From contig JAMASS010000036.1 in the NCBI GenBank assembly GCA_024761205.1, positions 1 to 45,859 on the forward strand: a stretch of DNA of 45,859 bases, read 5' to 3'. Under the pieces are notes generated by a model that ran no database searches, was not told the DNA's origin, and worked only from the letters and a program-made list of their open reading frames with translations. This DNA comes from Limisphaerales bacterium (lineage in GTDB: Bacteria > Verrucomicrobiota > Verrucomicrobiia > Limisphaerales > AAA164-E04). Below, piece after piece: positions 30,062 through 45,859 of this stretch. The stretch's first letter is position 1. The number at the start of each line of letters is the position of its first letter. The translations under genes were made by a program, and so were the position numbers.

Positions 30062-30250
30062 GGCCGAGATTTTGAGGGTTTCTCGAGGATGGGGCACCAC
30101 CGAGTGCCGGCCTTTCTTCACTCCCCCTGGCGTGGCTGGCCAAACCGTCCGCAAAATCGGCAACGGCGGGTTGGCGTGACCATGGGGGCAAAACCACATG
30201 CTTCCCCAACCTCCCTGCTGTTGGACAACCTTTATTGGCGAGAAATCCGG
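30062..30250. repeat. Dispersed repeat, copy 1
   Basis: Shares its left end (GGCCGAGATTTTGAGGGYTT and CTCGAG) and its right end (CTTTCCCCAACCTCCCTGC-like, then TTGGACAACCTTTATTGGCG and AGAAATCCGG) with 34070-34360. The centre is shorter and only loosely similar. No open frame of known type is inside. It abuts the broken Nudix gene. Confidence 0.8.
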
Positions 30251-30404
30251 GCTTAGGTGCCCTGTAACCATATCTCTGGAAAATCATGACAATCCCTTTA
30301 GTAGGTTAAAAGAATGCATCTGGGATTTTAGTCCCATGCTCTGGACCAGTGACTGAAGTCCCTACCACTTTCTCACGGAGGTGCGGAACCTCACCGGAAA
30401 GGGC

Positions 30405-34069: not shown

Positions 34070-34360
34070 GGCCGAGATTTTGAGGGCTTCTCGAGAATGG
34101 AGCAGCCATCAGCTTGAGCCCCCCTGCTCGCCCGCTGGAACTGCAAGGCTCATCTCTTGGCCGCACGTTCAAAGCCCCCCCATCCGGCAGCCTTGCGGCC
34201 CACCCCGCTAGCCGCCCAAGGGCGGCACTTACCCCGGAAGGCGCTTTTTTTGCCGGCGGGAGGCACAGTGGCGAAGAGGTTGGGGCGGCCATGAGGTGCA
34301 ATTCTCATACTTTCCCCAACCTCCCTGCCGTTGGACAACCTTTATTGGCGAGAAATCCGG
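34070..34360. repeat. Dispersed repeat, copy 2
   Basis: The longer copy of the element also present at 30062-30250. The two outer blocks (about 35 and 50 bases) are nearly identical between copies. The central part here includes a GC-rich stretch with CGCCCAAGGGCGGC. The right edge abuts the sulfatase relic. No transposase is encoded, so if mobile it would be a non-autonomous element. Confidence 0.8.
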
Positions 34361-34790
34361 ACTAAACTTCGGCCGGTCATCATCTCGGGAGGACGCAATA
34401 CGGCAGCTTCCAGGAAGGTTGGCATCAAATCGCTCAGGTTGACGAACGAATGGATTTCGCGGACGGGATATTTGATCCCCTGAAGTCACCGGATCGCTAA
34501 GGGCACGCGCGAGTTCGTACCATACAAACTTGGCTTTGACTCGGGGAAAGGGCATTCCGTGATCGCTGATGACGTCCACCATTGTGCTGCGGGAAGGCCC
34601 ACAAGTGGGGGTATCAAAAACGCATGAACGAAGCGCAGACCCTCTCGAGCCATGTGATCAAATGCGGGTATCTCCACTACCGGATCGTCATTGGCGCCGG
34701 TGTGCGAGCAACTTCGATCATCGAATATACAGAACAAAATGTTGGACCTGTCGGCACTGGAAGCGGTATTATTGAGAAAGAGTGCCGTAC
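34361..34790 (-). pseudogene. Sulfatase relic with internal deletion and frameshifts
   Basis: On the minus strand the sulfatase N-terminus is visible (signal-like residues, then ILFCIFDDRS and DPVVEIPAFDHMAREGLRF). A frame change follows and then TPTCGPSRSTM, which contains the C-x-P-S-R formylglycine motif (34589-34603). Immediately after it comes SDHGMPFPR (about 34550-34570), which in intact sulfatases lies some 200 residues later. A further frame change gives RVPLAIR and a degraded tail up to the dispersed repeat at 34360. The middle of the gene is deleted, so this cannot be active. Confidence 0.75.
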
Positions 34791-39294: not shown

Positions 39295-40810
39295 TTAAGT
39301 CCATCTTACAGACTTGTTGAAAAATATTTTCAAATTCTTCGTCTGACGAACGGATGCTAAGTCTGTGGCTTTGATATCCTCAACCGCCAGATCCGTTCCC
39401 AAAATCTTGGTTTTTCGCCACTATCACTCCTCCGCATCCAATGGCCTGAACAGCTTGATCCCCGGCACCGCATAATAAACGGCTGAAGTTGAACCGTGCA
39501 TTGGTTCGATGGTCGCAATAAATCGTCGCCCCCTGGTAAATACACCCCTCGCAAATCTCCCCGGAAAAATTTTTCGTTAATTATTTCGCTCGCCACTCCT
39601 CGTGCTGTCGATCGAAATGCCAATTACCTCCCTTGGCGGCAATGCTCAATTCCCCTTCCGGATCCTCGTCTCAATTGACCGGATGAAAGTTATGTGATTG
39701 ACGCAGGAAATTACTGATGACGTCGGCGTGCCATTCATCGCGAGGATTGGCCGGCTTCGTGTATTCCAAGAGCATCAAACCGCATCCTCGTCATTCACAT
39801 TGCCTCAGCCTCGCAGCAGCTCAACGACCCACTTAAACTCATCGTTCTCACCCTTCACCCAGTGCATACGATGCATAATACAACTTCACCGGAGTCCAGA
39901 TCTGCATCCGATCAGCAGGTGGAATCCCCCGACGACATACTATGGATAAACGGTCCCGCCGTTTCCCTCAGCAAGATCGAAGCGTGAACGACTCGCCAGA
40001 GCTCCGCCCACAATCGGGCACCTCTCATTTCGCTTGCCGGTGAAACGCCTCGTCTTGGAATGGTGGCTGTTCGACCACAGATCACGGAGATACCACGAAT
40101 AATCTGGTCATCCGTGTCATTCCAAAGCCCCGTGGTCCAAATTTCCGAAAAAATCATAAGAATCCGGCTTGGCAAGTGAAGCCCACTCCTAACTTGTTGA
40201 TCCCGCCCGGACAACAAAGACCCAGGTCCAGTCACCGCGATTGGAGTTGGACGCCCCGGCCTCGCCACTATCACGGGCCTCCATCAATCAATCCCCCAGC
40301 CTCCGCAATCGTCGAGGAAGGCGGCCGGACCGAGGGCGAGACCGTGGCCCAGCCAACGAACGCGCCGACTTGATCGCCGGGCGGTGGCAGACGATCGCCG
40401 GATGAGGGGCTTGATGTTTCCTAGCTTCCATCCACTCTTCCCGGAGCGGAATCGCCCGGGCGAATGCTTCCCACGCGCCCCCGGCCCGGGCCTTCAAACA
40501 AACGACGAGCCCTGACATCGGCTGCAATGCGACCAGTGCCAAGGGGAACGGACTCGCGGCCTTATCCGCCGTTATTGTCTAAACGGCTCTTGATCCCCCC
40601 TCGGGCTTTTCCTGATCGAGACGAGACCAGCGAAACCCAAATCTTGTCTCCCACGGCCGAGGGAAGGGCATCCAAACTCCTGAACGACGTGCAGACACCT
40701 TGCTAGGTCTGCACGTAGCGCTCCAATAAACCCCGCCAATACAGCAAAAAACACACCGGAGCAACCAAATCTGACGTCGATACGGGCATCTTCGACCAAA
40801 AATCTCCAGA
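39295..40810. other. Decayed region without intact genes
   Basis: No open frame here has family features or a ribosome site. On the minus strand there are short coherent stretches in changing frames (for example KGENDEFKWVVELL near 39.8 kb, and DHRTNARFNFSRLLCGAGDQ near 39.5 kb) that look like degraded protein genes, but I cannot name the families. Composition is still like the left part of the window; the AT-rich block begins near 40.8 kb. Confidence 0.45.
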
Positions 40811-40839: not shown

Positions 40840-41530
40840 ATACCTTTAATCTACCTAAAGCCCACAGAATACAACGGCAGCAAGGCAGTACCCTATATCA
40901 GAGTGCTTGCGGAGGAGTTTCTTAAGAGCATTAAACCCATTTCAGATAATTTTTGAGGAAAAGGAATTATTACCTGCGGTGGAAAAAACTGTTGGCCTTT
41001 ATAGTTAGGTGCTCGCCAATTAACTGCGACGTTTGAATGTAAGTGTTTCAGTTAAATTATGGCACTTCAAGGGTGGGGTACCGGAAAAGGTGAGAATTAA
41101 GTTAAAAGGTCTGAGTGTCAACTGCGTCAACTTACTTGCAAGTATTCCAAAGAAATGGAAAAAATCATTCATTCCCTGAGGTTTAAAGTCTTTCGCAATA
41201 CTTAAAACACAGTTCGAGAATGTGCTATGGCTCGACGCGGACAATATTCCAGTTCGCGATTCAACGTATGCATTTAAGACTCCTGATTACAAAACGAGAA
41301 ATGCAATTTTTTAGCGAGACTATAAATATCTGTATATGGCCCCAAAAATGAGCATTTGGAAGTTCGTAAGGATTAAGTATGATTGTACCCCCCCTTTTTT
41401 TCATGCGAGAGCGAACAAATGTTGGTCAACAAAAGTAAATGTTGGAAAGCATAAAACTTTTTCTACAAGTTCATTTGCAGAGATAAAAAGGCATTTCAAA
41501 AATGTGGAAAAACATATACTATGCCCATAA
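40840..41530 (+). pseudogene. Relic glycosyltransferase gene (mannosyltransferase-like, L-D-A-D-N motif)
   Basis: A coherent protein reads through stop codons on the plus strand. FLKSIKPISDNF, a stop, then GKGIITCGGKN come first. After one frame change near 40990 there follow LRRLNVSVSVKLWHFKGG, GLSVNCVNLLASIPKKWKK, GLKSFAILKTQFENVLWLDA DNIPVRD and, after a stop, RDYKYLYMAPKMSIWKFVRI and KCWSTKVNVGKHKTF. L-D-A-D-N (41231-41245) is the nucleotide-sugar DxD-type motif; the set fits Mannosyl_trans3/GT71-like bacterial enzymes. Four stops interrupt the main frame (41006 TAG, 41021 TAA, 41177 TGA, 41312 TAG) without indels in about 500 bases. At 41177 and 41312 Trp is the expected residue. The gene is dead. 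Confidence 0.65.
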
Positions 41531-42710
41531 CTGCAATATTTCCCATATCGTCTACAATGATTCATTACAATTTTGATCGAAAGATACTATTCCAGCATCA
41601 AAATCTAAATAAATGAAGACTAGCTGGGAAAACCAAAAATCGTTGATTTTCATTTGAAAAAGAATGTTTTCATTATTTATAAACCTTGTGAAGGATTTTA
41701 GGAAGTTAGTATCTTGTCTATAATTCAGTAAGTGACATTTTCATCAGAAATATATCAACGAGAGGTTAGCTTAGAATACTTCCGGATGGCTGGAGTATCG
41801 TTGATAAACTAAAATTGGCAAAACGTTTTCATTTGAGGCCTATTGACAACTCGTCAACTTTGTATCAGAGATTCTCTGTTTGCTTCAGAAAACCAGTCGG
41901 GTGAATGATTTTGGGACATGCGGTCCTACGGTATTGGTGAAATTAAAAGACAAAGCAGTGAACGCTTTGACGAAAAATGAGTTTATACTGACACAAAAAT
42001 CAGAAGTGGCTTTTCGGCCTTTGCCAACTCAGTAGTAAACCGATGAATAAGATTTAGTGAGACAGAACAGGAGCAGCAAAAGGACATTTTGTGTCGGTTT
42101 AAGCAGCCTTTGCGATATTGGGTTCAGAACGGAACGCCCATTGTCGATCAAAGCTTCTACAGTAAACGGTTGTCGCATTGTTACAATATCAATTCTATAA
42201 AACCTTTCGTCGTAAATATTGGGGTCTTTGGCTTTTTTGGCTTCCGCTCATAACATGGATCAGATGATTATTTGGTATCGTAATCCTAAATCTAGAGGAG
42301 AACTGCTTCATAAAGCTCGATTCCAAAGCAAATTGGACACTATTCCATCAGAGTAAACGGATAAAGTTCTTTGAACTCATGACACGCTTTTATGGTTACG
42401 GTGTTATTTTCTGGTTCTGCATTGTTGCCATTACCAATATAAATAATACACTATAAAATACAGATCAGTTTAATATAGGTTGAATCAATATTGGAATAAT
42501 TATCATTCATAATGTCTTCATTTGTGATTGTCTCTGATATCGCATTAACTCTACTGACATTTGGTTTCCTCCAAAACTCAATACAACAGGCATAGCACTT
42601 TAAATTGACAATGATAAGCATGCGTATCCGAACACATAAACTGTTCTCGAGGAACAGGTTGCTATTCAACTGGATGATATCACCGTATAAATATGTAGAT
42701 CTCAGTTGAT
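41531..42710. other. AT-rich stretch without recognisable genes
   Basis: Clearly richer in A and T than the rest of the window, with no open frame over about 75 codons. The first 100 bases may be the eroded 3' end of the glycosyltransferase relic (MIHYNFDRKILFQH). Fragments such as WVQNGTPIVDQSFYSKRL at about 42.1 kb look protein-like but are not identified. I see no RNA gene, array or inverted repeat. Confidence 0.5.
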
Positions 42711-43308
42711 TGATTCAATCCAAATTCGGACTTTTCCTTGGTATTGGGATTGGTGTCACGCTAGATTTGTCCAACAGTGCGCAAAAGTCCGGCTCTGATC
42801 GTGGATCAAGTGTTTGTAACCCAACAGAATTCCGTCCTCATAATCCAACAAATTTCAGCCCATCTAAATGCCGGCTTCTTTCAAAATACGAGTAATCGTC
42901 GATCTCCCAATGTCGTGCCCCAAGTTCCTGACTGTCTCCTCGATTGATCCGTAACTCTAGCCAGAGTTTTTTTTGCTAGCTTTATGACAAGGTATGCCAG
43001 GCAAATATGTGTTCGGGGCCTGCCCATCCGTTTTTCACTCGAATCTTGCTTTCTCGCAACGAGCCTACGGTGCCACGCAAACAAAGTATGGGTGTTACGA
43101 TGCTCGCCATCTCTTTGGGCTTTTCTAGCTTAAACTTCCGGGCCTTTGTCGCAAACCGACGACACTGTGCATTGGTGAACTTCAACTGTTTGGTCCCACC
43201 TGTTCCCTCAGCACCACACCTCCTCTCTGAGATATACGCAATCGCGTCCTGTTGCTGTTGGTTGATCCACCCGGCCACGCAAAGCAATATAAATCGCAAC
43301 AGGTCCAT
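42711..43308 (-). pseudogene. Relic DDE integrase/transposase gene
   Basis: On the minus strand, pieces of an rve-type transposase appear in order but in shifting frames: FILLCVAGWINQQQQDAIAY, GTKQLKFTNAQCRRFATKA with KPKEMASIVTP, then WHRRLVARKQDSSEKRMGRP, ETVRNLGHDIGRSTITRILK EAGI (around 42863-42930), a stop, and DGILLGYKHLIHDQSRTFA. The catalytic core between RILKEAGI and the IHD segment is deleted. The order and wording match the IS481-like integrases common in Planctomycetes and Verrucomicrobia. At least two frameshifts plus the deletion make it inactive. Terminal inverted repeats were not found. It lies on the 3' side of tRNA-Glu. Confidence 0.7.
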
Positions 43309-43504
43309 GGAAAATAGCTTGTTAGATATGCAGGAACTGTCACCCCGGCACTCGAAGGCTACCGTCACCACAAGAAATTTGATATCCAACAAGTTATGAA
43401 ACCGATTCGATTTTTGGGATATTACGTGACTTGGGGTCAAAGGTTTATGAAGACATAGAAATTCTGTGCGATTTTCTAACACAGATATCAAGGAGAGTTA
43501 TGGA

Positions 43505-43582
43505 TGGCGACCCGTACGGGAATCGAACCCGTGTTACCGCCGTGAAAGGGCGGTGTCCTGGACCGCTAGACGAACGGGTCGC
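43505..43582 (-). tRNA. tRNA-Glu (anticodon TTC)
   Basis: Read on the minus strand, the 7-base acceptor arms GCGACCC and GGGTCGC pair. The anticodon loop CTTTCAC holds TTC within the stem CCGCC/GGCGG. The T arm has GGTTCGATTCC, and CCA is encoded (43505-43507). This gives 75 bases plus CCA. It is the only intact gene in the last 6 kb of the window. Confidence 0.96.
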
Positions 43583-43682: not shown

Positions 43683-44744
43683 GCAGGACCGTTTTTATCC
43701 TGTTCATCCTACCTCAACAAATTGCTAGGTAGTTGGTTCGAAGGGAAACCGGCTCGAGAGGACTCTCCCCATTTCTATTGGCCTACTCGGGCAAAAGTTG
43801 CCGGAGTTTTATGGTCGGTCCACGGGAGAGGTCTCGATTCGGACTAGTTGCACTGCTTGGTGACGAGGGCGGGTTGAATGATTACCGATGAATATCTTCA
43901 GGCGGTTCAGAGGTAACTGTGCCAATGACGACGATCAAATCGTAGATCGATACGGCTAGAGATGATATCACAGTTAAGATATGGGGAGGTTCTTAAAGAA
44001 GGCTATCGACTGAAAAACCGAACCGCGAAGTCCAGGGAGGATAATTTGAATCAAAAGTTGAATCCCCAGTGACCCATTCGGAGTTTAGCAAAGGTGGGAC
44101 ATTGGTTTCATCCCTTCGCCACGGAGTTTATAGCAGCCGGGATAGATTGGCGCGTAAAGTTCTCCACCTGCCGAGATCGTGGTTTGATCTTCGTCCCCCA
44201 GTGTTGGTCTAGGATTCTCTGAGGCCGTTCGTTCCCATTGGTGACCGGGCCAGGCGAAAGGCAACTCCAGTGACTTTACCTAGGAGGCCGGCTTGGGACC
44301 GAGGAAAGCTATGAGTTGCTTGAGGGCCATTGGTTTTTGCATCGCCCCAGTTGTTGTCTTTCCCGGTCGGGATCAGTGATCGGCGCTTGCGCTAATTCCC
44401 AGCCTCCGAGCCGCTCAGGGCAACTCCCCGAATCAATCGCTAGCTCGCCCCCTTGGGGAAACGATCTCTCGGAAGAGCAAGAGGCTTCCGGTTTCGGAAT
44501 TCTCCCGCCGTTAGACAAAGCCGGGAACTGAACTTCTGTTGAAAAGGCCTAGAGTTTCACCTTTAACGCAGATAGAAGCATCAATTAAAAGTATCGATCC
44601 GCCTTTAGGGACAGCGACTCCGCCACGCGGATGGCCGCGGGTCGCAAACAAAAGCATTCCCGGAAAACGATCTCGGAAATTGATCCCCCCGATGATAGAG
44701 GAATACAAGACGAGGCAAATACGCGAGAGTGTCCTTCTTCGTTG
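43683..44744. other. Region without supported genes
   Basis: Short open frames only (44309-44518 minus, 44316-44531 plus, 44539-44745 plus), none with a recognisable motif. The minus frame at 44585-44899 begins inside the relic described at 44745-45180 and loses its protein-like character below about 44745. Confidence 0.45.
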
Positions 44745-45180
44745 AATGCCTCGGGCAGAAGATACCCGTGATTCACCGTGGTATTCATTCGGATGATGAA
44801 CACGCGTTGATTGGTGGCCATATATAGCATGAGCTCAGCTGTGGTCTCATAGTTTGGATTGCGGCCCATGTAGTTCGGTGGAGTGAAATCACCTAGCAAC
44901 TAGGAGTTATTGATGTTGTAGAACAAGCAGCCGTAATTGTCTTGCGTCATGTCCCATTAACTACGCATCTCAGTTTCTTGTCACAGTCGCCACTAGTCGA
45001 TGAGCCGATATCGGGACCGAGCATTGTTAATCCAATTATCCATGGCCAACATCAGCCCGTTGGTCGCATGTTCCACATTGCCACAATCGTAGTTGGAGAC
45101 TAATAAGGTGACCTGATCGGCCGTCTCGGTTGGCATCACGCGCAAAATGAAGCTGATGGTCGGCCACAAATAAAAACGCC
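44745..45180 (-). pseudogene. Relic of an unidentified protein gene
   Basis: One minus-strand frame reads as ordinary protein over about 145 codons: RFYLWPTISFILRVMPTETA, DQVTLLVSNYDCGNVEHATN, GLMLAMDNWINNARSRYRLI, then MTQDNYGCLFYNINNS and DFTPPNYMGRNPNYETTAEL MLYMATNQRVFIIRMN. It contains four in-frame stops (44994-44996 TAG, 44982-44984 TGA, 44958-44960 TAA, 44900-44902 TAG) and no visible indel. I do not recognise the family. It is a decayed gene broken by substitutions, like the glycosyltransferase relic. Confidence 0.55.
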
Positions 45181-45859
45181 TCCCCTGATGGCCAAGACGG
45201 AGCAGGGCAACACCAAGCCCTTAAGAAAACAAGCTGGAGTGATTTCGACCGGAGAGCTTTGTCGCATTCAAAATTTGCTTGAAACGGTTCAAGAACTCGC
45301 TCTGGGAGATGCGATCAGCAGAAACATGGTCCATTGATTAAACCGCTTTCGCAGCATATCGACAATGTCTCTTAACCTCACAGACGCCTTAGGGCCCACT
45401 GAAAATTGCCGCCAAAGACCTTCACCCAAGGAAATGCGCCGAGAGGAACGTCTTGTCCGACGTGATTCGTCGGCTGATTGTGCAAGTCCGTGCGCTATGC
45501 TGATATGAACCCAAGCACAACGGAGAGATGGCAAAAGAGTCGATGTCGATTCACAAATGCCATGCCTTCACAAGGTTTAACCTAATGGCTGCCAAAGATG
45601 AGATTCAGCCACGTGGGTAAAGATCGCTTTGCCCGGCAGAGATTGGAGGAAGTGAAGGGACCTTCAGTCCTTTTCTCGAAGAACGCAGTAGGCCGCCGCA
45701 GTCAGGGACGTTCCTTAAGTCCAAGCACTGGACTTGCATTCTCTTCCTATTGTGTTTGGCGGGTTCAAGGTTTTTTTTGCGGTGATGGGGGTCGTTGACG
45801 ATCCAAGGGGCAAAAGGCGATTGGGCTTTCAACGGTCATGCCGCAGACCTTGATCGGCC
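45181..45859. other. Region without supported genes (right edge)
   Basis: Open frames at 45289-45534 (-), 45598-45798 (+) and 45605-45832 (-) have no motifs and overlap each other. The minus-strand stretch FLNRFKQILNATKLSGRNHS near 45.25 kb may belong to the same relic as 44745-45180. Confidence 0.4.

Follow-up and report, generated by a model that had tools for sequence, protein, structure and literature searches.

What kind of DNA is the AT-rich stretch near the end of this contig, and how was the gene that it appears to hold broken? The window analysed here, 45,859 bases in length, corresponds to the whole of C30, one of 92 contigs that make up the 4.9-Mb draft genome of an environmental bacterium. 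An earlier note had described positions 40840-41530, from the letters alone, as a glycosyltransferase remnant interrupted by stops and not by insertions or deletions, which had either decayed through transition mutations or come from a very AT-rich donor. We examined this region by direct reading, translation in all frames and a composition profile. The strong AT enrichment that had been reported was readily seen, as GC content drops near 40.85 kb, from values of about 0.56-0.67 to values of 0.30-0.42. The AT-rich sequence forms a block at 40850-43500, with two relics inside it and host-type sequence on both sides, in which GC content is 0.36 at 40850-41700, 0.37 at 41700-42780 and 0.47 at 42780-43500.

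A Mannosyl_trans3 pseudogene in three reading frames

A profile search of the genome with the family Mannosyl_trans3 (PF11051) gave a match at one place, 41114-41332 (E 4e-11), with a score of 43.6 bits against a curated cut-off of 22, and this match contains one TGA and one TAG. The proposed glycosyltransferase similarity thus withstood a homology search that could have overturned it. When the pieces of the relic were searched separately against Pfam, with X in place of stops, the middle piece alone scored 44.9 bits against the same family. The relic is therefore a Mannosyl_trans3 glycosyltransferase pseudogene, the sole copy in the genome; the family name predicts a mannosyltransferase-like activity for its ancestor.

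Intact homologues were gathered from order-level genomes and a scan of a genome collection, leaving 77 after the removal of duplicates, which were aligned; the named records amongst the closest of them are mostly from Verrucomicrobia. The profile of these 77 proteins finds homology in three pieces that lie in differing frames (40900-40986, 41009-41398 and 41398-41700), with E-values for the middle and last pieces (7e-28 and 8e-19) that exclude chance as the source of the similarity. The first piece, at 40891-40986 on the forward strand, carries the start of the domain (...GKGIITCGG...) and a TGA at 40954, with profile positions 7-35 matched at an iE of 1e-4 and tblastn following the same frame. 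The second, 41000-41401 on the forward strand, is in another frame, the one previously taken as the main frame; it contains the LWLDADN motif as well as the PF11051 match and covers profile positions 44-172. The third, 41407-41700 on the forward strand, is again in a different frame, covers profile positions 170-285 and is short of about 14 codons, as seen when many of the homologues are aligned to it by tblastn, which leaves one gap of 10 residues and one of 4.

The main frame holds exactly four stop codons, the number first counted (TAG at 41006, TAA at 41021, TGA at 41177 and TAG at 41312), and the third piece adds stops at 41452, 41614, 41644, 41680 and 41689. Over 40891-41715 there are up to eleven in-frame stops, the last of which, at 41707, falls slightly beyond the end of the profile match. 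Those at 41177 and 41312 do stand at Trp positions, as the earlier note had supposed, Trp being present in 58 and 77 of the 77 homologues, respectively. Two further stops fall in Trp columns, at 41006 (69/77) and 41614 (71/77), and four of the seven Trp-column codons of the relic are stops (two TAG and two TGA). However, the view that the gene was broken by stops and not by indels has to be given up, since the homology undergoes two net frame changes, detected with both tblastn and the profile, and codons are missing from the third piece. No single frame is retained through the homologous region: the main frame persists for about 400 bases only, not the 500 or so once ascribed to it, and the relic as a whole is about 800 bp long, reaching to about 41,700 and thus beyond its formerly assigned end. 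With some ten stops and two frame changes, the relic has no open reading frame from which the enzyme could be made. The same frame changes, together with the missing codons, refute the idea of a functional gene that is read under a different genetic code. The two TAG and two TGA codons in Trp columns would suit such a code, with stops read as Trp, but the other stops occupy non-Trp columns, the relic has lost many conserved residues, and standard stops terminate long open frames of the same window; we give this reading next to no chance of being correct.

Intact relatives occur in two forms, either as a fusion of about 880 aa that combines a GT9 domain, Mannosyl_trans3 and a C-terminal part (L069 in Verrucomicrobia, for example) or as separate neighbouring genes (for example the verrucomicrobial L091, of about 400 aa). 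The GKGIITCGG and LWLDADN motifs and the ESGQ...K.CW-like region of the verrucomicrobial proteins are recognisable in the relic, which is unlike them in its stops, frame changes and missing codons, and unlike the fused form in having neither a flanking GT9 domain nor the C-terminal part. Profiles made from the N-terminal (GT9) and C-terminal parts of the fused form gave no significant match near the relic, which therefore probably derives from the separate-gene form. Its first homologous residues lie near the drop in GC content at about 40.85 kb, as would be expected had the gene formerly begun close to that point.

Mutation spectrum and base composition

Because identity between the relic and its homologues is only about 30-37%, ancestral codons can be deduced at conserved columns only. 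We took the columns in which at least 80% of the homologues share a residue and compared the codon bases fixed by that residue with those of the relic. Changes were found at 31 of 129 conserved bases, compared with a median of 4 at the same bases in intact homologues, and the locus unites the features expected of a bacterial pseudogene, namely a recognisable homologue, disabling lesions and lost conserved residues. The changes comprise 19 G>A, 2 C>T, 2 A>G, 1 T>C and 7 transversions, a transition-to-transversion ratio of 24:7 (p 6e-7 in a binomial test against 1/3) that also exceeds the 218:248 of the intact homologues (p 0.001), with the caveat that 129 sites are few and that the alignment is loose around some of the changed columns. 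Mutation is biased in direction as well, with GC>AT changes at 22 of 70 sites and AT>GC changes at 4 of 59 (p 7e-4). This tabulation against intact homologues bears out the predicted transition bias and hence the first half of the claim that the gene decayed by transitions rather than deletion; the second half fails on the two frame changes and missing codons. The G-to-A changes that had been read from the stops at 41177 and 41312 are indeed the only one-step route to them, but since any single-step stop from a Trp codon must arise in this way, two such stops alone prove little, and the weight of the argument is carried by the four of seven conserved Trp codons that are stops together with the wider spectrum.

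On the coding strand, G>A affects 19 of 56 sites and C>T 2 of 14, small counts that do not differ significantly (p 0.20, and 0.15-0.49 at other thresholds), and nothing distinctive was seen in the neighbour-base context of the G>A changes. We consider it highly improbable that the relic carries a strand-specific burst of G-to-A mutation, missing from the neighbouring relic, in place of ordinary two-strand deamination. AT-biased mutation, mainly through C/G-to-T/A transitions, has been reported in several clades of bacteria (Hershberg and Petrov, 2010; PMC2936535). Compared with neutrally decaying DNA under such a bias, the relic has in common an excess of G/C-to-A/T transitions, and its GC content has drifted at all codon positions; we see no essential difference, other than that its relatives are remote and its spectrum rests on conserved columns.

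The relic has lost the codon-position signature in GC content, which is flat over the three positions (GC1/2/3 of 0.351/0.351/0.354), whereas GC1 remains the highest of the three in the most AT-rich intact homologues (0.379/0.263/0.260 in L132 and 0.460/0.331/0.293 in L094, with a smaller step of 0.391/0.310/0.361 in L128). The existence of such homologues, with GC contents of 0.30-0.39 and mostly from Bacteroidetes, is in keeping with the suggested alternative of a very AT-rich donor, according to which the gene arrived at low GC and acquired only its stops and frameshifts later, as is the clearly lower GC content of 40.85-43.5 kb relative to neighbouring dead DNA (0.54 upstream and 0.51 in the DUF7133 relic described below). 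However, these AT-rich homologues change 4-14 of about 130 conserved bases compared with 31 in the relic, and they are not the best-scoring ones, the top four of which have GC contents of 0.49-0.58 and the top fifteen 0.45-0.70. We regard an AT-rich donor as unlikely. Drift after loss of function is favoured, since the GC content of the relic is flat over codon positions and that of the best homologues is 0.45 or more; some contribution from the donor is possible, given that low GC content persists throughout the block up to 42.8 kb.

Neighbouring relics and the edges of the block

The other relic of the AT-rich block, at 42780-43302 on the reverse strand, lies in several frames and is putatively transposase/integrase-like. 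Its 43090-43302 portion resembles, at 39-58% identity, open frames as long as 379 aa from genomes of the same order, the remainder was assigned by eye, and no Pfam family matched it at cut-off. Just outside the block is an intact tRNA-Glu (TTC) at 43505-43580 on the reverse strand, identified with ARAGORN and Rfam and conserved in the genus (96-100% identity in three congeners); no other hit came from an RNA-family search that spanned 39.2-45.9 kb. Past the tRNA, the reverse strand of 44016-45334 holds a DUF7133/cytochrome-c pseudogene, broken into several frames with stops and lacking about 225 residues, which was recognised by tblastn with the intact gene of a congener (L174:7588-11124) and the Pfam assignment of that intact copy. 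In the congener, this gene encodes 1178 aa and lies beside the same tRNA-Glu.

These neighbours bear on whether the contig is chimeric, with an AT-rich piece from another organism joined near 40.8 kb. The compositional edge at 40.85 kb is sharp, and the assembly graph does branch at the end of the contig, where 123 bases (45737-45859) are identical to the ends of two other contigs (C14 and C88). However, host-type sequence flanks the block on both sides, such that two false joins would be required: to the left, 40151-40668 holds repeats present on other contigs of the same genome, and to the right are the tRNA-Glu, near-identical to those of the congeners, and the DUF7133 relic in the congener's gene order. 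A chimeric join is for this reason very unlikely. The repeats at 40151-40668 consist of pieces of 60-260 bases that share 72-83% identity with contigs C49, C7, C18, C31, C39 and C87; they show no consistent open frame and possibly represent a dispersed repeat family.

The spectrum of the DUF7133 relic, obtained at the same threshold of 0.8, differs from that of the glycosyltransferase relic. Fifteen of 93 bases are changed, nine by transition, with five GC>AT and six AT>GC changes (5:6 against 22:4, p 0.04), and its GC3 is still 0.59. Since this spectrum is balanced between GC and AT, the glycosyltransferase relic is probably the older of the two; a purely shared process would need them to differ in age, which counts against neutral decay under a general bias as the main explanation.

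The possibility of a genome-wide graveyard was raised by a second contig of the same genome (C28), which is poor in open reading frames over 20 kb, and was dropped when this stretch proved to be a very long CRISPR array. The array, at 241-20650 (L055 241-20000, continuing into L164), is built on a 37-base repeat that is present 266 times (260 copies identical) and has 265 spacers, mostly of 37-42 bases and 263 of them distinct, the cores of which had no match amongst the other loci compared. Copies of a further dispersed repeat, about 45-130 bases long, lie in the window at 34250-34364 and 30197-30253; this repeat occurs at about 30 places in the genome with 71-93% identity, and likewise at the CRISPR contig's edge.

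Origin and decay of the gene

We estimate a probability of about 0.84 that the relic is a formerly single-domain Mannosyl_trans3 gene, probably gained horizontally, which then decayed neutrally through AT-ward transitions, frameshifts and small deletions. Glycosyltransferase genes of this type occur in Verrucomicrobia and also in other phyla, and one of them would once have resided at this place in a verrucomicrobial genome. Its horizontal gain, perhaps along with the transposase-like gene, is probable because a PF11051 search of ten other genomes of the family gave no match; a search for copies of the relic in congeners at the DNA level matched the tRNA only, and no intact copy came to light that was related closely enough to date the event. 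Selection on the gene would later have ceased, and ordinary decay would have followed, with G/C-to-A/T transitions that may stem from cytosine deamination under the general bacterial bias, accompanied by frameshifts and small deletions.

The relic is a real but ordinary pseudogene and matters little by itself. It provides a clean example of how reading one frame for stops alone conceals frameshifts, and of how the conserved columns of remote homologues can still yield a mutation spectrum. Moreover, two relics with different spectra that flank one tRNA-Glu could help to order gene losses in the genus.
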